Origin: an uncultured Acetatifactor sp.
GTDB taxonomy: Bacteria; Bacillota; Clostridia; Lachnospirales; Lachnospiraceae
Length of the DNA: 26,189 bases
Assembly (NCBI GenBank): GCA_934436245.1
Contig: CAKSAM010000035.1
Location: 1 to 26,189 of the forward strand
Reading direction: 5' to 3'
The number at the start of each line of letters is the position of its first letter. Position 1 is the first letter of the stretch. The notes under the pieces are model-generated. The model saw nothing but the letters and a program-made list of their open reading frames with translations, was not told the origin of the DNA and ran no database searches. The position numbers and the translations under genes are program-made. Positions 1,572 through 26,177 of this stretch are shown here, one piece after another.

Positions 1572-3002
1572 TTACTGTAACAGAGACAGTACGCCCTGAT
1601 TAGACTGGTTAGCCTGAGCCAGCATAGCCTGACCTGCCTGAGCCAGGATGTTGTTGTTGGAGTACTTAACCATCTCAGTAGCCATATCGGTATCACGGAT
1701 CTGGCTCTCTGCGCTGGTGGTATTCTCAACTACGTTATCCAGGTTGTTAACGGTATGCTCCAGACGGTTCTGAACGGCACCAAGTGCGGAACGCTGAGTG
1801 GATACCTTCTGGATAGCCTGAGCGATTGTATCTATAGCCTTATCAGCATTGGTGCTATCTTTTCCATCAACCAGCAGCTTACCATCTTCGTTGACCAGTC
1901 CAAGGCTCTTTGAACTCATGGATTCAATGCTCATCTCAATCTTATTATCGTTAGATGAATCAGCTCCTACATGTAAACTTACATTTAATGCATCAGGTAC
2001 ATATGCATTATCATAAGCTTTCAATTTTGTAACAGTATTCCCTGTTGTAGCATCCTGCTCAGCCTTAATTGTGACTTTTACCTCGTCTCCTACTTTTAAT
2101 CCCGAATCCTTTAATTTATCAGCTGAAGTATCACCAGCAGCCGCCTTAATGGATAATCCTGCCTGTAAATCTTTCTGCTCTGTCTGATTCCATTTCAATT
2201 GAATCACCATCTCACCCGCAGCTCCAGTTCCTCCATCGGTAATATTGACACCCATTTTTTTAAGCTGTGCCTGTGTTAAAGTTGCCACAACAGTAGTTCC
2301 GTCTGCGCCACCTTTAACTTCATACTGATCCACATTCTTACCAGCATCTTGCTTCTGGGTAATAGTAATTTCGCCAGCTGTAGCATCATTTAATGCATTC
2401 AGTACACTTCCACTTAAATTGCCGATAAGAGCTCCACCTGCATTATTCTTTACTTCTGCTGTTACTTTACCAAGAACAACATCTCCTGCTACTAATTCAG
2501 AACCTGCTGCAGCATTTAATTCCACGTTAGCTAATTTACTTTCAACCTTCTGATCCGTATCAGTAGCAGAAACAGTACCTCTTGCATTACCCTGTAACAG
2601 ATAAGTTTCATTAAACTTAGTCGTAGTAGATACACGATCAATTTCTGTTACTAACTGATCAATTTCATTCTGGATATAGCTTCTGTCATCTTCACTGTTA
2701 GTACCATTAGAAGCCTTAACTGCCAGTTCGTTCATTCTCTGCAGCATATCGTGTACTTCGGTCAGAGCGCCTTCAGCGGTCTGTACTGCACTAATACCAT
2801 CCTGTGCATTCAGGGAAGCCTGTGTCAGACCTCTGATCTGCTTTCTCATCTTCTCACTGATGGACAGGCCTGCTGCATCATCAGCTGCACGGTTGATCTT
2901 GTAACCGGAAGACAGTTTCTCGGTGGACTTTGCCTGAGAAGCGGTGGTCAGACCTAACATTCTGTTAGAGTTCATAGCTGTAAGATTGTGTTGTACTACC
3001 AT
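1572..3002 (-). CDS. Flagellin
   Basis: This 476-residue protein is the filament subunit. The N-terminal D0/D1 region (about 1-140: MVVQHNLTAMNSNRMLG, SSGYKINRAADDAAGLSISE, LQRMNELAVKASNGTNS) and the C-terminal D1/D0 region (about 385-476: TQRSALGAVQNRLEHT, ending NQSNQGVLSLLQ) are both intact. The intervening 240 residues are a variable surface domain rich in Lys, Thr and Ala. The 'LQRMNELAVKASNGTNSEDDR' stretch corresponds to the segment of bacterial flagellins recognised by TLR5. There is no signal peptide, as expected for type III export. AAGGAGGT at 3011-3018 sets the start. It lies downstream of csrA on the same strand. No sigma-28 promoter is visible in the 180-bp gap, so expression probably depends on read-through from the csrA side. 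The gene name (hag or fliC) is a matter of convention and is left open. Confidence 0.97.
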   Translation of the reverse strand: MVVQHNLTAMNSNRMLGLTTASQAKSTEKLSSGYKINRAADDAAGLSISEKMRKQIRGLTQASLNAQDGISAVQTAEGALTEVHDMLQRMNELAVKASNGTNSEDDRSYIQNEIDQLVTEIDRVSTTTKFNETYLLQGNARGTVSATDTDQKVESKLANVELNAAAGSELVAGDVVLGKVTAEVKNNAGGALIGNLSGSVLNALNDATAGEITITQKQDAGKNVDQYEVKGGADGTTVVATLTQAQLKKMGVNITDGGTGAAGEMVIQLKWNQTEQKDLQAGLSIKAAAGDTSADKLKDSGLKVGDEVKVTIKAEQDATTGNTVTKLKAYDNAYVPDALNVSLHVGADSSNDNKIEMSIESMSSKSLGLVNEDGKLLVDGKDSTNADKAIDTIAQAIQKVSTQRSALGAVQNRLEHTVNNLDNVVENTTSAESQIRDTDMATEMVKYSNNNILAQAGQAMLAQANQSNQGVLSLLQ

Positions 3003-3022: not shown

Positions 3023-3112
3023 TACTGCCCAATTCCTTTTGCGGCAGTGTGCGTATCTGTATTGTTATTGAGAAATCCTTTTCTCCCAGATACTTGTTTT
3101 TAGTTTTTATAG

Positions 3113-3182: not shown

Positions 3183-3452
3183 TTATTTGTCCGCATTTCC
3201 CTTTGTAATGATCACGTTGGATTTTTTGCGGTACTTCTCCGGGTGCTCTTCTTCCGCATAATATTTAGGAAGCTTCGCTCTCTCCTCCGGATCTGTGATC
3301 TGGTTCTCCAGCACCGTGCTTCGCACGATGTTCACCTCTTTCGGTGCATCGATCATGATACGGAGATGATTCTTGGTTCCTCCCAGGAACACGATCTTGA
3401 TATTGTCATTGATCATCAGGTATTCTTCCGGACTAACGGTCAGACGCAGCAT
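3183..3452 (-). CDS. csrA: CsrA, carbon storage / flagellin translation regulator (C-terminally extended)
   Basis: This 89-residue RNA-binding protein dimerises and blocks ribosome access to GGA-containing leaders. In flagellated Firmicutes its main target is flagellin mRNA, and FliW antagonises it. The CsrA fold spans residues 1-50 (MLRLTVSPEEYLMINDNIKI, then DAPKEVNIVRSTV) and keeps the RNA-binding residues L4 and R44. The region after residue 50 is unusually long and charged (about 39 residues, TDPEERAKLPKYYAEEEHPEKYRKK), compared with about 60-75 residues in typical full-length CsrA. Residues 5-10 (TVSPEE) also depart from the usual TRKxGE. Its SD is AGGGAGG just upstream. It is followed by flagellin on the same strand. 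FliW is not in the window. Confidence 0.9.
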   Translation of the reverse strand: MLRLTVSPEEYLMINDNIKIVFLGGTKNHLRIMIDAPKEVNIVRSTVLENQITDPEERAKLPKYYAEEEHPEKYRKKSNVIITKGNADK

Positions 3453-3505: not shown

Positions 3506-3537
3506 ATGCAACATTTTATTATGGAATGTTGCATTTT
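3506..3537 (+). repeat. Left inverted repeat of the invertible segment
   Basis: This 32-bp repeat is matched in inverted orientation at 4259-4290 with a single mismatch. It is itself built as a recombinase core site: arms ATGCAACATT (3506-3515) and AATGTTGCAT (3525-3534) flank a 9-bp spacer TTATTATGG, followed by TTT. It lies 54 bp upstream of the csrA start codon. Confidence 0.95.
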
Positions 3538-3569
3538 CCTAATTCATTTATTCTTTCAAGGAGGCCATT

Positions 3570-4151
3570 ATGAGCACGACACAACCTATCCGCAGCAAAC
3601 AGCTTTTACACGATTTTAAAAATTACTACCTTACCAAACAGCCCAACTCCCGTAATTACACACTCATCCTGATCGGTCTGAACACCGCTCTCCGCATCAA
3701 CGACATCCTTCATCTCACCTGGGGAGATGTCTATTGCACAGAACACAGCCGCTTTTACACTCATCTCCTGATCACGGAGAAAAAAACAGAAAAAGAAACC
3801 AGAATCCTGATCAACAGAGAACTTCAAAAAACATTACAGTCCTACCGGAAAACACAGACTTCCATAGCCGACACAGACTACCTCTTCCCCAGCCCCAGAA
3901 AAGTCGAATCCCCACTCTCCCGATATCAGGCTTACCGCATTGTCCGCAAAGCTGCCGAAGCCGTCGGGATCGAAGATGTGATCCGGTGTCACTCCCTGCG
4001 GAAGACCTTCGGCTACCACGCATGGAAAATGGGAACTCCGCCCGCATTGCTGATGGAGATTTACAATCATTCTTCTTTTCAGATCACAAAACATTATCTG
4101 GGAATTGAACAGGATGACAAAGATGCCGTATTTCGTGACATACAGCTATGA
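3570..4151 (+). CDS. Tyrosine recombinase (FimB/FimE-sized DNA invertase)
   Basis: This 193-residue tyrosine recombinase consists essentially of the catalytic domain, like FimB and FimE (about 200 residues), which invert the fim promoter in E. coli. The full catalytic set is visible: R42 (LNTALRINDILHL), a Lys at 71/72 in the beta-hairpin, H141 and R144 (HSLRKTF), H167 (YNHSS) and the nucleophile Y176 (TKHYLG). There is no N-terminal core-binding domain beyond about 30 residues. AAGGAGG at 3559-3565 sets the start. The gene lies wholly between 32-bp inverted repeats and ends 107 bp before the right one. It is the obvious enzyme for inverting that segment. I found no convincing promoter for it. 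Confidence 0.93.
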   Translation: MSTTQPIRSKQLLHDFKNYYLTKQPNSRNYTLILIGLNTALRINDILHLTWGDVYCTEHSRFYTHLLITEKKTEKETRILINRELQKTLQSYRKTQTSIADTDYLFPSPRKVESPLSRYQAYRIVRKAAEAVGIEDVIRCHSLRKTFGYHAWKMGTPPALLMEIYNHSSFQITKHYLGIEQDDKDAVFRDIQL

Positions 4152-4217
4152 CATACGGCTTGTATAATTGCTATAGTGATATGAGAATAACGTATTAACG
4201 ATTTTTGTAAAAAAGGC

Positions 4218-4244
4218 TAAAGTTTTCCCATGGTCAGCCGAAAT
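4218..4244 (+). promoter_or_regulatory. Sigma-28 (SigD/FliA) flagellar promoter inside the invertible segment
   Basis: TAAAGTTT (4218-4225), 11 bp, then GCCGAAAT (4237-4244). The -35 box and spacing match the sigma-28 consensus TAAAGTTT-N11-GCCGATAA exactly, and the -10 box differs from the Bacillus form GCCGATAT at one position. Transcription would begin near 4251, just before the right inverted repeat. It faces right in this assembly and would face csrA-flagellin after inversion. Confidence 0.85.
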
Positions 4245-4258
4245 ATGTAGTGCAAGAC

Positions 4259-4290
4259 AAAATGCAACATTCCATAATAGAATGTTGCAT
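4259..4290 (-). repeat. Right inverted repeat of the invertible segment
   Basis: This is the inverted partner of 3506-3537: AAA, then arms ATGCAACATT (4262-4271) and AATGTTGCAT (4281-4290) around a 9-bp spacer CCATAATAG. The only difference from the left repeat is one base at the edge of the spacer. Similarity ends abruptly outside both repeats. Confidence 0.95.
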
Positions 4291-4302
4291 TTTTCTATTT
4301 TA
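4259..4302 (+). terminator. Terminator-like hairpin formed by the right repeat and its flank
   Basis: In RNA the right repeat folds into a roughly 14-bp stem (AAAATGCAACATT with AATGTTGCATTTT), immediately followed by TTCTATTTTAAT. Hairpin plus U-rich tract resembles an intrinsic terminator lying just downstream of the sigma-28 start site. The stem is AT-rich, so its strength is uncertain. The equivalent position beyond the left repeat reads CAGCGCAAAC and lacks the U-rich tract. Confidence 0.4.
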
Positions 4303-4405
4303 ATCCTTTCATTTCTGTGGTATTCTTTTAAAGACTGCATATTGCTATTTTTCGACAAATATTTCTCTTTTATTGAAACATATACAGTCAGAATCAGGAG
4401 TACAC

Positions 4406-5326
4406 ATGAAAAGCTTTATATGTAAAATGTTCTATAAGCAGCGGGCGGCATTTGAGCAAAGCTGCGCTTCCAGGGGCAAAGAGTACCCTCTTCCGGAAGA
4501 CGTTTTCCTACAATCGGATATTTTCTATGACGAGAAGCATGTTCCGGCACATCGTCTGGATGTCTACCGTCCCAGGGGACGGGATGGAGAGATTCTCCCG
4601 GTCATCATCAACGTACATGGCGGAGGCCTTCTCATAGGGAACAAGGAATTCAACCGTCCCTTTTGTGCTTCCCTTTGTGAGGCGGGGTATCTGGTGTTCA
4701 GCATTGAGTACCGGCTGATACCGGACTGTCTCTTCTATGACCAGCTGGCTGACCTGCATCTGGCACTGGATTTTATCCGGGATCATCTGACGGAATACGG
4801 CGGTGACATTTCCCACATATATGCCTGCGGCGACAGCGGCGGTGCCTGTCTGTTGACTTATGGAATCGCCATGCAGCGAAGCACTGCACTGGCACAGGCT
4901 GCCGGAGTAACCCCTTCTGACCTGCCAGTCCGGGCACTTGGCCTGGTCAGCGGTATGTTCTATACGAACCGCCTGGATCAGATCGGACTTTTCCTCCCCA
5001 GATATCTCTACGGCCGACATTATAAAAAAAGTGCTTTTGCCCCCTATGTATCTCCGGAGCACCCGGACATCGTGACCAGCCTGCCACCCAGTCTCCTGAT
5101 CACCAGTGACAACGATAATCTTCAGAGCTATACTCTGAATTTTGAAAAGGCTCTGCGCAGACATCAGATGCCTCATAAACTGATCAACTATCCGAAGGAT
5201 CCCCGCCTGACCCATGCGTTCAGCGCTTTTTACCCGGAGCTTCCGGAAAGCAGGGAAGTGATCCACCATTTGATTCACTTTTTTGAACATACCGGGGAAG
5301 AATGTAAAGGAGGATGTGTATCATGA
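4406..5326 (+). CDS. Alpha/beta hydrolase fold-3 esterase (HSL-like)
   Basis: This 306-residue predicted cytosolic esterase/lipase has the HSL-type oxyanion motif HGGG (about residues 71-74), the nucleophile elbow GDSGG (S144), an acid residue in [10 protein letters not shown] (D235 or D237) and the catalytic histidine in LTHAF (H270). I chose ATG 4406 over an in-frame ATG at 4373 because CAGGAG lies at 4393-4398 and nothing like an SD precedes 4373. The substrate is unknown; family members hydrolyse short acyl esters. The stop codon overlaps the chemoreceptor start (ATGA, 5323-5326), so the two are translationally coupled. In this orientation the gene lies downstream of the invertible sigma-28 promoter, about 160 bp from the -10 box. 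Confidence 0.88.
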
Positions 5327-7419
5327 CATACGACGAAAATGTTTTCAAAGAAAAAGCCAATCGGAAGGCTCGTAAGATCTGGATCGTTTTTGCTGTTTTA
5401 CTGAGTGCCAACTATGGCTCCGATGCGTCCGGGGGATTATATCCCACCACTTCTTATCTGATCTTTCTGGCATTATGCTGGCTGCCTTTGATCTTCGGCG
5501 AAGTGCTGTTACGTGTAAAGGGCTGGGCAACGGAACTCTACCGCTACGATCTGGTCATCGGTTACGGCATCTTCTATACCTTTGTTATCTGTACCACAGC
5601 GTCACCCATCGCATTCACTTACATCCTTCCGGTGACAAGCTTACTGGTCCTGTATAAGAACCGGAAATTCATGATCAACTGCGGTATCGTCAACTCTCTG
5701 ATCATTGTGGGCGCTGCCGTCTACCGCTACATGTTAGGCTTTAACAGTGCTTCCGATATGAAGAATTACCAGCTGCAGCTGTCATGTATCATCCTGTGTT
5801 ACATCTGCTATGTCATGTCCATCCGCCACTTGAACGAGTCCGACGGTGCCATGACCGACAGCATCAAAGCAGACCTGCACAGAGTCGTGACCACGGTAGA
5901 ACAGGTCAAGACATCCAGCAATACCATTCTGGACGGCATTACTGTCGTAAGAGAGCTGGCTTCCGAGAACAAGCACGGTTCCGATATGGTCATGCTGGGT
6001 ATGAATGAATTGACGGATAACAACCATATGCTGCAGGATCGGACGACCTCTTCCACACAGATGACTTCCGACATCCGTGCCCAGGTGGAAAATGTTGTGG
6101 CACTCATCAGCGAAATGGTATCTCTGGTAGGGAAAACCGAATCCCATTCCAGTGTCAGTGCAAAAGATCTGCAAAGTCTGGTAAGCACTGCAACTACGAT
6201 GTCAGAGCTTTCTACGGAGCTGGAAAATGTCCTGCAGAATTTCCAGCAGGAATTTGGCATGGTGAAGCAGGAGACCGGTACCATCGAAAAAATTACAAAT
6301 CAGACGAACCTGCTGGCCTTAAACGCTTCCATCGAAGCAGCCAGAGCCGGTGAGGCAGGCAAGGGCTTTGCCGTCGTTGCTGAACAGATCCGTACCTTAA
6401 GTACCGAGACCCACGCTTCCTCCGGACAGATCAGAGAAGCTCTGTCCCGTCTGGATGCTACTTCCGCTAAGATGACCGCTTCCATTGAAGAGACCTTGAA
6501 GCTGATCCAGGTCACTTTGGAAAAGGTAACACATACCGGTGAAAATGTAAATCAGATCGCATCTGATTCCGCACAGCTCGGCAGACATATTCAGGTAGTT
6601 GATAATGCAATTAAAGAAGTCGAAAGTTCCAATACCCAGCTGGTATCCAATATGGAACAGGTAACTAATATCGTGGAGACCATTACCGGCTGTATTGCAC
6701 ACTCCAGCCAGACCAGTGAGCGCATGCTCAGTAAATATGAAGAGACCGCTGCCAATATCAATACCATTGAAGATGTCATGGAGAACATGATGTGTGATCT
6801 GGGTATCGGCGGCTTCATGGGTATCGAAGATATTCAGCCAGGCATGAAGATCGATCTGAAATTAGTCGGTCAGGGAGATACGGAATACCTTGGAGAACTG
6901 ATCGAACAGATTCCGGAAGGCCTGCTGGTATCCTGTCAGAAGGAGCTAGCACTCACCAATACCGCTTCCTGCACCTTACAGATCACTGCAGGCAATATCC
7001 TGTATTGTTGGGACAAGGCAGCCATCTCTCCTGCTCCTGAAAAGGGTGCTCATGCCTTCAAAATCTTCATTAATACCAGACCCCGGATCAATAACCGCCG
7101 TAAATACCCCCGTATGGATCTGGACAATGCCTGCACTATTAAGTTCAAAAATTCCGACAAGGAATATGCAGCTACCATGGATAATATCAGTGCCAACGGC
7201 TTTGCTTTTCTGGCGACAGACAATATCTTCACCCAGAGCAAGAATGCCTGGGTCACTGTCACTATCCATGATTTCGCCCTCCCGGATCACAATGTGCTGG
7301 AAGGACGTATCATCCGCTGTTCCGATGATAACGGTCTGTTCATCGTAGGCTGCCAGATGCCGGAGGATAACTTCTATATTCTGGAATATGTAGAGAAAAA
7401 TCTGGAAAGTAAGAAATAG
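5323..7419 (+). CDS. Methyl-accepting chemotaxis protein with C-terminal PilZ domain
   Basis: This 698-residue chemoreceptor has about six hydrophobic segments in residues 15-170 and only short loops, so it lacks a classical extracellular sensor domain. A long coiled-coil signalling domain follows (about 185-500), with the conserved hairpin tip around E338 ([22 protein letters not shown]) that contacts CheA and CheW. The C-terminal 110 residues form a PilZ domain: RRKYPR at 592-597 and D-N-I-S-A-N-G at 620-626, the two c-di-GMP-binding motifs. It probably links c-di-GMP level to chemotaxis signalling. Start 5323 has AAAGGAGGA (5306-5314) and overlaps the esterase stop. Chemoreceptor genes are frequently in the sigma-28 regulon, which fits the promoter upstream. 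The combination of a multi-pass membrane sensor, MCP and PilZ is uncommon. Confidence 0.95.
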
Positions 7420-7427
7420 TCAAATAC

Positions 7428-7458
7428 AAAAGGGTGTCGCACAGCGGCACCCTTTCTT
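7428..7458. terminator. Intrinsic terminator between convergent genes
   Basis: AAAGGGTG (7429-7436) pairs with CACCCTTT (7448-7455), extended by TCG with CGG around the loop CACAG. T-rich sequence follows on the plus side and A-rich sequence precedes it, so it can stop both the chemoreceptor and the converging AraC-family transcript. Confidence 0.85.
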
Positions 7459-7478
7459 GTTTGGTTTTATAGTTTCAT

Positions 7479-8366
7479 CTACGGCTTCAGGAGCCGGGCG
7501 ATCAGACCCTCGACCTCCTGGAGCTGTTCTTTTGTGCTCTCCTTGTGGCTTTCCTTGCGGTATTTCGAAGGGGACATTCCCTTCATGGCGTGAAAGGCCT
7601 TGGTAAATACCAGGGCATCGCTGTATCCGCAGGACAGTGCAATACTCTCGATAGGATAATTCGTGGAGTCCAGAAGCTCTCTCGCCTTGGTAATACGGAA
7701 GGTAGTAAGAAACTGCTGTGGAGACATCCCCAGATAGTTCTGGAACAGCGTATATAAATAGCTGCGGTTGATACACACATAGTCCGCCACATCCGTGACC
7801 TTGATGGGGTTACAGTAGTTGCTCTGGATAAAGGAGACCGCTTTTTTCACATACTGGTTCCCCTTATCCTCTTCCTCTCTTGCCACCACACCGGCGCTGT
7901 CGGCGATCACCGACAGAAATACTCCCAGCAGTCCGTTCCGGCGCAGATCATCCGCAATGCCAAAGGTATTGTGCTCCATCATATCCCGGACAATGGAATA
8001 CAGTTCCTCTGATTTATCACAGGAAAAAATAGGATGTCTGTCTGACAGTCCCATGCTGTGTAAATATTCTTCTGCCCGGCTCCCGGCAAATCCCACCCAC
8101 AAATAACTCCAGGGGTCCTTCGCATCCGCCTGGTAAAAAGCCAGTTCATTGGGCTGGATCAGAAAGCCGTAGCCTGCCTCCAGCCGGTATTCCTTGTCGT
8201 GAAACCGGAAATGCCCCTTGCCACTCAGGACATAGTGGATCAGGTAATGGGGCTTGGAGGCCGGTCCGAAGCTGTGCAGCGGTGCCGTCTGGGAGCATCC
8301 GCAGCAGTTCACATACAGACTTCCTGTCTTATCATTGACAAAATCCAGTTTAAATGCTTTTTCCAT
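7479..8366 (-). CDS. AraC-family transcriptional regulator
   Basis: This 295-residue protein has an N-terminal cupin-type sensing domain (about 1-165, including HYVLSGKGHFRFHDKEYRLEAG) and a C-terminal pair of helix-turn-helix motifs (about 195-290: VTDVADYVCINRSYLYTLFQNYLGMSP and IESIALSCGYSDALVFTKAFHAMKGMSPSKYRK). The layout is that of sugar-responsive AraC activators in Firmicutes. It starts 39 bp after the end of the capA-like gene on the same strand, so it could be the last gene of that operon. No sugar gene is adjacent and its target is unknown. Confidence 0.93.
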   Translation of the reverse strand: MEKAFKLDFVNDKTGSLYVNCCGCSQTAPLHSFGPASKPHYLIHYVLSGKGHFRFHDKEYRLEAGYGFLIQPNELAFYQADAKDPWSYLWVGFAGSRAEEYLHSMGLSDRHPIFSCDKSEELYSIVRDMMEHNTFGIADDLRRNGLLGVFLSVIADSAGVVAREEEDKGNQYVKKAVSFIQSNYCNPIKVTDVADYVCINRSYLYTLFQNYLGMSPQQFLTTFRITKARELLDSTNYPIESIALSCGYSDALVFTKAFHAMKGMSPSKYRKESHKESTKEQLQEVEGLIARLLKP

Positions 8367-8405
8367 CGTCGAACCATACCCTTTCTGCGCTGCGAGCTTT
8401 CTCTT

Positions 8406-9653
8406 TTAATTTACGAGAATCCCACCGTTGTCATCAAATTCCACACCGAAATCCCGGCTGTATTCATTCATACGCTGCAAAATTCTCTTCTTATCCTCCC
8501 CTGCTGCCGGAGTCGGCTTAAAATCATTCCGGGTGGACACAGAACTCACCAGACAGGGAATGATCCTGGCATTCCGGTCCTCCACCTTCTGTCCGTTTTC
8601 AAATGTAAAGGTCTGCTGGAAGATCATGGTATCTTTATCTGCCGGGTTCCGGTTGGCCCCGAAGCAGAAATTCGCCAGGCTATAGATAATATATCTGCCC
8701 TTATATTCTTCGATTCCCTGAAGGACATGGGGATGATGACCAATGACCAGATCCACGCCCCAGTCAATGCATTTTCTGCCAAGTACCTGCTGATAATCCT
8801 CCGGGTAAGTGTCTTTCTCGATTCCCCAGTGACAGCATGCCAGGATCAGGTCCACCTTCTGTTCCCGCAGCGTTTCGATATTATTCTGGATCAGCTTTTC
8901 TGCCTGTGCGCCCCATTCTACCTCATTGACGGAGATGATCCCTATTTTCAGATTCTGCTCTCCGCCGTGGGCTGCCGCACTGTCCGGGATCTCATAAACA
9001 CCTACATTTTTATCATAGGCATAGACGATTCCCTCCTGCTCCAGTGCCGCCACCGTGTCCCGGCTTCCCTGTTCGCCATAATCCAGGCGGTGATTATTAG
9101 CGAAGCTGACGGCCTCAATGCTCCCCAGTGTCAGCAGATGTGCGTAGGCCGGATCTCCCTTGATACAGTACGTCTGGTCTTCTCGCATCTGCTCCGATGT
9201 GGTCAGCGGTCCTTCCAGATTCACAATGGTCATATCGTCCGCATCAAAGATGTCTCTCACATTTTCGAAAAAATAGCCCTCATCCTCTGTCTGATCGTAG
9301 GCCTGTCGGAAAGAAGACCCGTAATCCTGCTCCTGATGCGTTCCCAATGTCACATCCCCTGCTGCGGAGATTGTGATCGTATATCGGTCACTTGCCAGAG
9401 CCGTGGAGCTTTCTGACATCCCCGGCACTGTCACATCCGCTTCCCCGGAAGCTGTACCGGTCTGGGGACTGGCTGCGGAAGACTCCTGCGTCTGACCGGT
9501 CTGTGTCTCCGTGTGATAGCCGCCGATGGGCTGCGCCAGATCTTCCTTTCCCGGAATGTAGACCTGCTGTGTCAGATCATCACCGCACCCATTTAGCATT
9601 ATTACAACTGCCGCACTAAACAGTGCCGCAAGTATCTTTTTTTGCTGCCTCAT
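8406..9653 (-). CDS. CapA-family lipoprotein (poly-gamma-glutamate-synthesis-like metallophosphatase fold)
   Basis: This 415-residue secreted protein has a lipoprotein signal peptide (RQQKKILAALFSAAVVIMLNGC, lipobox cysteine at about 23) and a low-complexity Ser/Thr/Gln linker to about residue 90. A CapA/PgsA-type calcineurin-like domain follows. The metal-site motifs are in order: AAGDVTLG, NLEGPLT, FANNHRLDYGE, CCHWGIEKDTYP and GHHPHVLQG. Family members are implicated in surface polymer synthesis, but no capB, capC or other polyglutamate genes are present, so the role is unclear. Its neighbour, an LCP-family protein, also acts at the cell surface, which supports an envelope role. Confidence 0.92.
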   Translation of the reverse strand: MRQQKKILAALFSAAVVIMLNGCGDDLTQQVYIPGKEDLAQPIGGYHTETQTGQTQESSAASPQTGTASGEADVTVPGMSESSTALASDRYTITISAAGDVTLGTHQEQDYGSSFRQAYDQTEDEGYFFENVRDIFDADDMTIVNLEGPLTTSEQMREDQTYCIKGDPAYAHLLTLGSIEAVSFANNHRLDYGEQGSRDTVAALEQEGIVYAYDKNVGVYEIPDSAAAHGGEQNLKIGIISVNEVEWGAQAEKLIQNNIETLREQKVDLILACCHWGIEKDTYPEDYQQVLGRKCIDWGVDLVIGHHPHVLQGIEEYKGRYIIYSLANFCFGANRNPADKDTMIFQQTFTFENGQKVEDRNARIIPCLVSSVSTRNDFKPTPAAGEDKKRILQRMNEYSRDFGVEFDDNGGILVN

Positions 9654-18204: not shown

Positions 18205-18234
18205 ATTATATGATGCCAGGGTCAAAAGGTCTAA
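18205..18234 (-). promoter_or_regulatory. Possible promoter of the kinase, straddling a repeat boundary
   Basis: On the minus strand TTAGAC (18234-18229), 18 bp, then TATAAT (18210-18205). The -10 is consensus and the -35 matches at four positions. The -35 lies inside the MITE-like repeat and the -10 at its edge, so the repeat insertion may supply or modify this promoter. Confidence 0.4.
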
Positions 18235-18407
18235 GCCCATATGAGCTTGCTCATAAGTGGGTGAAAGACCTTATGACCCACCCCGATATGAGCATAAAAG
18301 TGGGATGATAATCCCACGATATGCGAATAGAGGGTAGGATTGTGGGAGTGCGTAGCACGAAGCAATCCGTAGGCATCAAAGTCGGGAGCTTTTGACCCCT
18401 ATATCAT
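18210..18407 (+). repeat. MITE-like repeat, copy A (full length)
   Basis: This element of about 198 bp has terminal inverted repeats ATGATGCCAGGGTCAAAAG (18210-18228) and CTTTTGACCC..ATATCAT (18389-18407), 15 of 19 matching. Inside are nested hairpins (GGTCT..AGACC; CCCATATGAG..CTCATAAGTGGG) and no coding frame. A related sequence occurs in reverse orientation at 21951-22112. It fills most of the gap between 18149 and 18503. Confidence 0.8.
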
Positions 18408-25223: not shown

Positions 25224-26177
25224 TTATTGTTTTACATATCTCTGATTCTTACTATTTGGCTTTTCCGGCAATGTCATTTTTATTAGTCCCAACTCTATGG
25301 CCGGCTTGATATAATTTTTTCGAAATGTTTCCTTGGATTTCAGATGCAGTGCCTCCATGATCGCATTAGCGGTATAGGGGACATCGTACTCCATTACTTC
25401 CAGCATCCGTTTTACATATTCTGACATACTTTCATTTATCTTATTTACCTGTATGATAACCTCATCTAATACCTGATCTATCATACTCAACATAAATTCT
25501 ATAAAAACATCTGAATTTCCATTCACATGACATTTTGCTATTGCATCATAATATTCTGCCTGGAATCTTTCAATCTGACTTTCCAACGGAATATATTCAA
25601 ACACATTTCTCCAACGATATAGCATTACCGTATGCCATAATCTGGCCATTCTTCCATTTCCGTCTGCAAAAGGATGTATAAACACAAATTCATAATGAAA
25701 AACAGCTGACACAATAAGCGGATGTATTGTCCCTTCACTGTTTTTAACCCATGAAAATAAATCCTTCATCAGTTCATTTACCATATTCGGCGGCGGTGCC
25801 ACAAAAATACACTGATCTCCGGAAAAGACACCCTCTTCCCCTTTTCTGAATACACCTGATTCCTCTACTATTCTATAGGTCATTATTCCATGGATTTTTT
25901 TCAGATCTGACATGCTTTGAGGATTTATTTCCGAGATTTTTTCATATGCAGCATATGCATTTTTCACCTCTTGTATTTCCTTTTGATCTCCCAATACAAG
26001 ATGACCATTGATGACATCTCTCACTTCAGCCAGAGACAAGGAATTTGCTTCTATTTTTAAGGAAGAATGAATGGATCGGATCCGGTTGTTTATCCTTAAA
26101 TGCGTCCTTGCCTCCAATTCCCTGTGACTGCTTATTTTACCTACTTTTTCAGATATAGAAGAAACAAGCTCCAACAT
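25224..26177 (-). CDS. Fic-domain protein (probable AMPylase/nucleotidyl transferase), start uncertain
   Basis: This 317-residue protein has an N-terminal helical region with an inhibitory-type motif SSLKIEAN (S39..E43), the Fic core with HPFADGNGRMAR (H168), and a C-terminal winged-helix-like region (about 250-317; AIMEALHLKSKETFRKNYIKPAIELGLI). Fic enzymes transfer AMP or related groups to target proteins; the N-terminal Glu of class II members blocks ATP binding. Here the residue after that Glu is Ala instead of Gly or Asn. The ATG at 26177 has no SD in the 12 bases left in the window, so the true start may lie outside. Target unknown. Confidence 0.9.
   Translation of the reverse strand: MLELVSSISEKVGKISSHRELEARTHLRINNRIRSIHSSLKIEANSLSLAEVRDVINGHLVLGDQKEIQEVKNAYAAYEKISEINPQSMSDLKKIHGIMTYRIVEESGVFRKGEEGVFSGDQCIFVAPPPNMVNELMKDLFSWVKNSEGTIHPLIVSAVFHYEFVFIHPFADGNGRMARLWHTVMLYRWRNVFEYIPLESQIERFQAEYYDAIAKCHVNGNSDVFIEFMLSMIDQVLDEVIIQVNKINESMSEYVKRMLEVMEYDVPYTANAIMEALHLKSKETFRKNYIKPAIELGLIKMTLPEKPNSKNQRYVKQ

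Follow-up and report, generated by a model that had tools for sequence, protein, structure and literature searches.

A putative self-contained invertible flagellin switch with its own tyrosine recombinase in gut Lachnospiraceae

The DNA analysed here (26,189 nucleotides, hereafter the window) carries at positions 3506–4290 a segment that is very probably an invertible cassette. As judged from sequence comparison, the cassette occurs in both orientations among relatives. Two states are predicted, interconverted by its own recombinase: OFF, with the internal promoter running into a terminator, and ON, with that promoter facing a csrA-flagellin unit. The first-pass annotation of this DNA had proposed an invertible flagellin switch carrying its own recombinase, and this proposal is supported by an inverted junction in two public open reading frames, P0003 and P0012, and by a related locus, L046, that was assembled in the ON orientation. 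The window as sequenced is predicted to represent the OFF state. The most probable function is to turn a flagellin ON and OFF, the OFF state being plugged; the plan is Hin-like but built around a tyrosine recombinase.

Table 1. Features of the cassette and its neighbours (window coordinates).
Feature	Position	Strand	Basis or description
Flagellin, 476 aa, switch target	1572..3002	-	PF00669, PF00700
Hairpin with GGA in loop, flagellin leader, predicted CsrA-type site	3025..3047	-	Enriched in related leaders
csrA, first gene of switched unit	3183..3452	-	PF02599 at 3.1e-18; 54 bp from left site core arms
Left recombination site	3506..3537	.	10-9-10 palindromic arms, core TTATTATGG; central 6 bp TATTAT, as in right site
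Tyrosine recombinase, 193 aa, presumed invertase of segment	3570..4151	+	PF00589 at 6.1e-26
Sigma-28 (FliA) promoter motif, pointing right in sequenced orientation	4218..4244	+	Motif match and fixed position in relatives
Right recombination site	4259..4290	.	Core CCATAATAG, which is CTATTATGG inverted
Predicted intrinsic terminator, OFF state only	4259..4302	+	Right site, flanking A/T runs and outer T-run
Esterase and PilZ-containing chemoreceptor genes, neighbours right of switch, probably not switched target	4406..7419	+	Opposing or unrelated genes in relatives; predicted terminator

Elsewhere in the window there are a Clostridiales-1 RNA (18211–18378, 147 bits), tandem Gp49-family and HTH genes resembling a HigB-HigA toxin-antitoxin pair (226–911), two adjacent small ORFs with no Pfam match that both contain FFEYDAEAEKRVIYKDGVE (932–1468), and a gene for a Fic-family protein (25224–26177).

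The inverted repeats that bound the segment are 32 nucleotides each, 97% complementary and spaced 721 nucleotides apart. Both sites have the 10-9-10 layout that the first-pass annotation had reported, and their two 10 bp arms form a palindrome around the 9 bp core. A search with the arm pattern, allowing up to three mismatches, returned two matches in the window and none in 100 shuffled sequences. At the same threshold the genome of Lachnospiraceae bacterium GAM79 (locus L002; a single 4.08-Mb contig) contains only these two sites, and the same is true of the genome that carries locus L003. The arms, TGCAAC...GTTGCA, are common to sites throughout the family described below. The segment holds a promoter motif between inverted, site-specific repeats.

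A complete recombinase gene lies between the repeats, as had been annotated. Its product scores 91.7 bits against PF00589 (gathering score 27.1), and residues R42, K72, H141, R144, H167 and Y176, which we take to be the catalytic R-K-H-R-H-Y set, are invariant across 14 aligned relatives. The protein falls below the curated cut-offs for FimB/FimE (NF007370, 46.0 vs 221; NF007371, 44.8 vs 222) and below the equivalog cut-offs for XerA (75.4 vs 220), XerC (39.7 vs 335.15) and XerD (50.4 vs 329.6). We infer that this recombinase flips the segment in which it is encoded. A search of plasmids and IMG/VR found no copy. No promoter for the recombinase was found in the 67 loci with a site pair (from the best 80 of 359 matches; see below), in which the best sigma-A-like scores barely exceed those of shuffled sequences: the mean best score reading into the recombinase was 8.39 from the left flank (shuffled, 8.06; at least 10/12 in 10 of 67 loci) and 8.40 from the right flank (shuffled, 8.11; at least 10/12 in three of 67).

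A scan of one genome per species placed the cassette within a wider family. The best 80 of 359 matches correspond to 79 loci, with recombinase identities of 53–97%. Among 80 loci from this set, including the window, 67 have a recognisable site pair (27 nt in 50 loci, 26 nt in 17), and in the remaining 13 no pair was recognised by the site pattern. Positions 11–16 of the site are identical within the pair in 67 of 67 cases and variable between loci, while position 10, immediately adjacent to this central six, agrees in 58% of the 27-nt pairs. As a selection-matched control, left and right sites of the 27-nt class were combined across loci: of 2450 combinations, 1456 satisfied the rule by which pairs had been chosen, and the central bases were equal in 51 of those 1456. 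Genus and family searches extended the collection to 127 distinct recombinases (including the best 80 of 359 species-scan matches), of which 88 lie between a recognised site pair; for the other 39 no pair matching the site pattern used was found. The central 6 bp are equal within the pair in all 88, and 59 distinct 6-mers occur overall, which points to many paired site changes, though related loci are not independent. Nine genomes contain two or three cassettes each, and none of their 11 same-genome pairs share a 6-mer, although in one pair the difference is a single base. The central 6 bp are presumably the region of strand exchange, and each cassette would appear to have a private crossover sequence. 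In isolate B63 (loci L059 and L074) three cassettes, each with its own 6-mer, lie within about 12 kb amid many flagellin genes. Sampling across the family, with a threshold of E 1e-40, gave a match in 30 of 397 genomes. It is likely that these loci form a family of Hin-like switches in gut Lachnospiraceae, each with its own tyrosine recombinase, sigma-28 promoter and private 6-bp crossover sequence, which would let several flagellins of the same genome switch free of cross-talk, and each using the site itself as a default-off terminator.

The promoter motif beside the right site is the sole match in the window to TAAAGTTT-N11-GCCGATAA with up to three mismatches, and it has two. This match is weak by itself, because 0.29 would be expected in the window by chance and 28 of 100 shuffled sequences contain one. 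The motif gains weight because its position is fixed in the cassettes of relatives: a sigma-28 motif (at least 12/15) points outward in 67 of 67 site-pair loci from the best 80 of 359 matches, with the end of the -10 element always 43–49 bp short of the right site's far end, and background matches elsewhere in those loci occur at 0.071 per kb per strand. The outward sigma-28 promoter of the first-pass annotation is thus strengthened by the relatives. In the wider set, 87 of 88 cassettes have such a motif within 120 bp of a segment end, including four (L103, L150, L157 and L158) with the motif at 52–90 bp from the site end; in L168 none was found within that distance. In one variant (L141:3150-4350) the motif lies at the other end, on the 5' side of the recombinase, divergent from it and aimed away from csrA-flagellin. 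A FliA gene scoring above the curated cut-off is present in both close genomes, GAM79 and L003, and the promoter is presumably active.

Evidence for inversion comes from close relatives of the window. GAM79 is 96% identical to the window over 4.6 kb, the next closest relative is the MAG carrying L003, and the window and both relatives share one orientation. P0003 and P0012 are database proteins, known here from their protein sequence, that are encoded on contigs with the source label lgn (lengths 19,316 and 22,980 bases). Their recombinase reading frames begin in the right flank and span a junction specific to the inverted segment: in the 38-residue start, the first 27 residues exactly match a leftward reading of the right flank and site, and the left end of the cassette and then the recombinase follow. 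A scripted inversion of the window reproduces this start, except for one stop and a few leader residues, and the native order is unable to encode it because a TGA directly precedes the shared stretch. A query with P0012 residues 1–45 returned P0003 and P0012 alone. In addition, locus L046 was assembled with its promoter facing csrA (at 65 bp) and flagellin (at 503 bp), which is the aim that the first-pass annotation had assigned to one of the two orientations. Both orientations are therefore represented, the native one by the window, GAM79 and L003, and the other by P0003, P0012 and L046; the claim that the segment flips has gained support, and the search across relatives that had been suggested as a check gave a positive result. 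Among the 88 cassettes the promoter points away from flagellin or csrA in 82 and toward them in one (L046), lies between two flagellins in two, and has neither gene found beside it in three.

Two further public reading frames were recorded. P0099 starts inside the site, with a right-type core base before the recombinase, which fits inversion and is by itself no proof, and P0032 fuses the first part of the esterase with the recombinase and may be an assembly chimaera. A contig end lies within 300 bp of the sites in seven of 79 loci from the best 80 of 359 matches, vs 1.8 expected; this is only a hint, because flagellin repeats can also break contigs. The corresponding count at 1500 bp was set aside, as it includes L074, whose listed end is the end of the locus.

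The right site, as sequenced, appears to form part of an intrinsic terminator. This was examined in 65 loci, that is, the 67 site-pair loci from the best 80 of 359 matches minus L046 and L015, by comparing the sequenced arrangement with the flipped one. The 16 nt after the site contain on average 9.63 T as sequenced and 2.95 when flipped, the former being higher in 65 of 65 loci; the stem is extended by 6.26 pairs vs 1.43 (better in 59 loci, equal in six); and the folding energy is −21.5 vs −13.6 kcal/mol (better in 60, worse in five). Counting Watson-Crick pairs only, the stem extension is 5.29 with a locus's own flank and 1.74 with the flanks of other loci, indicative of covariation. In the wider set, the T excess is on the non-flagellin side in 75 of 75 cases, and L046, the locus assembled ON, shows the reverse, with an energy of −15.1 as assembled and −26.5 if flipped. 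The window itself follows the family (11 T vs 1 flipped; energy −18.1 vs −12.8). Its stem is AT-rich with four G-C pairs, and a plain terminator scan gives two such sites vs 1.2 expected, so the case for a terminator here is carried by the family. We infer that the hairpin stops transcription.

Flagellin and/or csrA adjoin one side of 83 of the 88 cassettes and both sides of two (L015 and L103), and were not found beside three. No further sigma-28 match was found in the window, in agreement with the earlier statement that flagellin is disconnected from sigma-28 in the given orientation, and in L116 and L117, the two closest relatives, the 800 bp upstream of this flagellin contained no match of at least 11/15. 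Hairpins with GGA in the loop are typical of CsrA sites. They occur in 60 of 79 flagellin leaders vs two of 79 shuffled leaders (one shuffle per leader), suggesting that the switched unit may carry its own translational brake; the csrA product would then limit flagellin translation. The idea of a single fold shared by the leaders was rejected: for the 33 leaders (of 83) that contain GGGCCC, RNAalifold gave −4.8 kcal/mol, which is almost nothing, and the GGA hairpin was the one feature to stand out.

The GAM79 genome encodes two further flagellins. One is 82% identical at its start and is preceded, at 187 bp, by a sigma-28 motif of its own; the other lacks such a motif. Given the motif of the former, flipping probably decides whether one particular flagellin is made, not whether the cell is motile at all, and OFF cells could still be motile. 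A comparison of the switched flagellins of the window and GAM79 shows agreement in 99 of the first 100 alignment columns and in 90 of the last 102, and in 45 of 139 aligned residues in columns 150–350. At the DNA level the middle of the gene (1877–2582) could not be aligned with GAM79, and the surrounding DNA is 93–97% identical. The middle of the protein would appear to be changeable, as expected of a surface antigen. A second csrA-flagellin pair (L119) in the L003 genome lies on a contig that ends 99 bp past the csrA start, and may mark a second switch.

In the proposed mechanism, transcription by sigma-28 polymerase would begin a few bases ahead of the right site. In the OFF state the RNA would fold on that site and transcription would stop; flipping would take the terminator away from the path of the promoter, which in the ON state would fire through the left junction, where there is no T-run, and reach csrA after 54 bp and flagellin after 504 bp.

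The first-pass annotation had also envisaged possibly reciprocal expression, with the promoter serving csrA-flagellin or, after a flip, the esterase-chemoreceptor genes. Both of the latter genes are oriented rightward, away from the right site. A tblastn search with the window chemoreceptor placed it directly after the switch in the window, L002 and L003, which make up the whole clade, and only there. Some leak through the terminator is possible, and with it leaky read-through into the chemoreceptor genes of this clade; L015 (6500–7900) and L103, moreover, have a flagellin gene on each side with no T-run contrast, so that a flip there would choose between two flagellins. Nevertheless, a two-way toggle is unlikely for the window, as the predicted terminator separates the promoter from the esterase, and the right-hand neighbours are not conserved. 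The first ORF right of the segment opposes the promoter in 34 of 61 loci from the best 80 of 359 matches (the 67 minus six in which the right flank was short or yielded no ORF; length was the sole criterion for calling ORFs, and L015 and L046, with the flagellin unit on their right, are included). The 27 forward ORFs are unrelated between species, the commonest Pfam family, ECF transporter, accounting for three, and others including argininosuccinate synthase, phosphotransacetylase and impB/mucB/samB relatives. The right-hand genes were therefore rejected as a conserved target, leaving flagellin as the target and the right side as incidental; the reciprocal part of the earlier proposal is unsupported. 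An extended -10-like sequence, TGGTATTCT, noted by eye at 4318–4326, is a candidate that could serve the esterase genes. A GenBank scaffold labelled 'Bacteriophage sp.' (L001; MT839087.1) matches window positions 4316–8897 at 88.8% identity and so is bacterial DNA; it starts 26 bp beyond the right site.

Flipping may be rare, since 82 of 83 one-sided loci are in the OFF state and the window, L002 and L003 agree in orientation. The same observations would suit a fossil or locked switch, whose sites once recombined, whose orientation is now nearly fixed and whose promoter mainly makes a short RNA. This is very improbable in view of the inverted junctions of P0003 and P0012 and the ON arrangement of L046, the intact recombinase frame, and central 6 bp that are still equal within every pair while varying between loci. 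The notion that the recombinase is the integrase of a small mobile element, moving the segment between sites with inversion as an incidental outcome, draws on phage records with relatives at 39–54% identity among the 20 best listed; it is extremely improbable, given that the sites are inverted rather than direct, that csrA and/or flagellin adjoin 85 of 88 cassettes, and that the position of the sigma-28 motif has been kept in every site-pair locus from the best 80 of 359 matches. The preferred reading thus remains an ON/OFF switch of csrA-flagellin.

Gut Lachnospiraceae flagellins are strong immune signals. If many genomes of this group keep a flagellin under such a switch, its expression in the gut would be bistable, cell by cell, and gene counts would overstate the number of producers. 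With 59 natural 6-bp crossover sequences in one site frame, the family also offers material for experiments on overlap recognition by small tyrosine recombinases and on what keeps cassettes within a cell from recombining with each other. Many Roseburia and Eubacterium flagellins have been placed under sigma-28 (PMC3720852), and the words recombinase, integrase and phase variation are absent from the main text of that report. No description of the present combination was found among the papers listed in searches of the open-licence PMC literature.

Each element of the cassette has a precedent: Hin, RecV, the cwpV OFF terminator and the enclosed recombinase of Providencia. In Salmonella, flagellar phase variation depends on Hin/fljBA, where Hin is a serine recombinase acting at hix sites with a Fis enhancer. 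As in Hin/fljBA, recombinase gene and flagellin promoter share one invertible segment of similar size and the flagellin unit lies just outside; unlike Hin, the present system combines a tyrosine recombinase (PF00589) and a sigma-28 promoter with palindromic-arm sites that match over 6 bp, and a terminator is predicted for its OFF state. The Clostridioides difficile flagellar switch, as described in the reports cited, is a 154-bp segment with 21-bp repeats upstream of the flgB operon, where RecV serves several switches and the OFF state is Rho-dependent (PMC5386303, PMC7446863). On that description, tyrosine recombinase, inverted repeats, clostridial flagellar phase variation and, as predicted here, an OFF state tied to transcription termination are shared features, whereas here the segment is about 780 bp, encloses its recombinase and promoter, and faces a csrA-flagellin unit. 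For C. difficile cwpV an intrinsic terminator has been proposed in the OFF orientation only, with the promoter outside the 195-bp segment (PMC2784873); the predicted OFF-only terminator is similar here, but the promoter is inside the segment and turns away as well. Finally, small tyrosine recombinases of about 200 aa also operate the FimB/FimE fim switches and that of Providencia stuartii, whose 844-bp fimbrial segment, as reported, likewise encloses a recombinase ORF (PMC5903667); the present cassette differs in being flagellar, not fimbrial, and in a recombinase that scores far below the FimB/FimE models.
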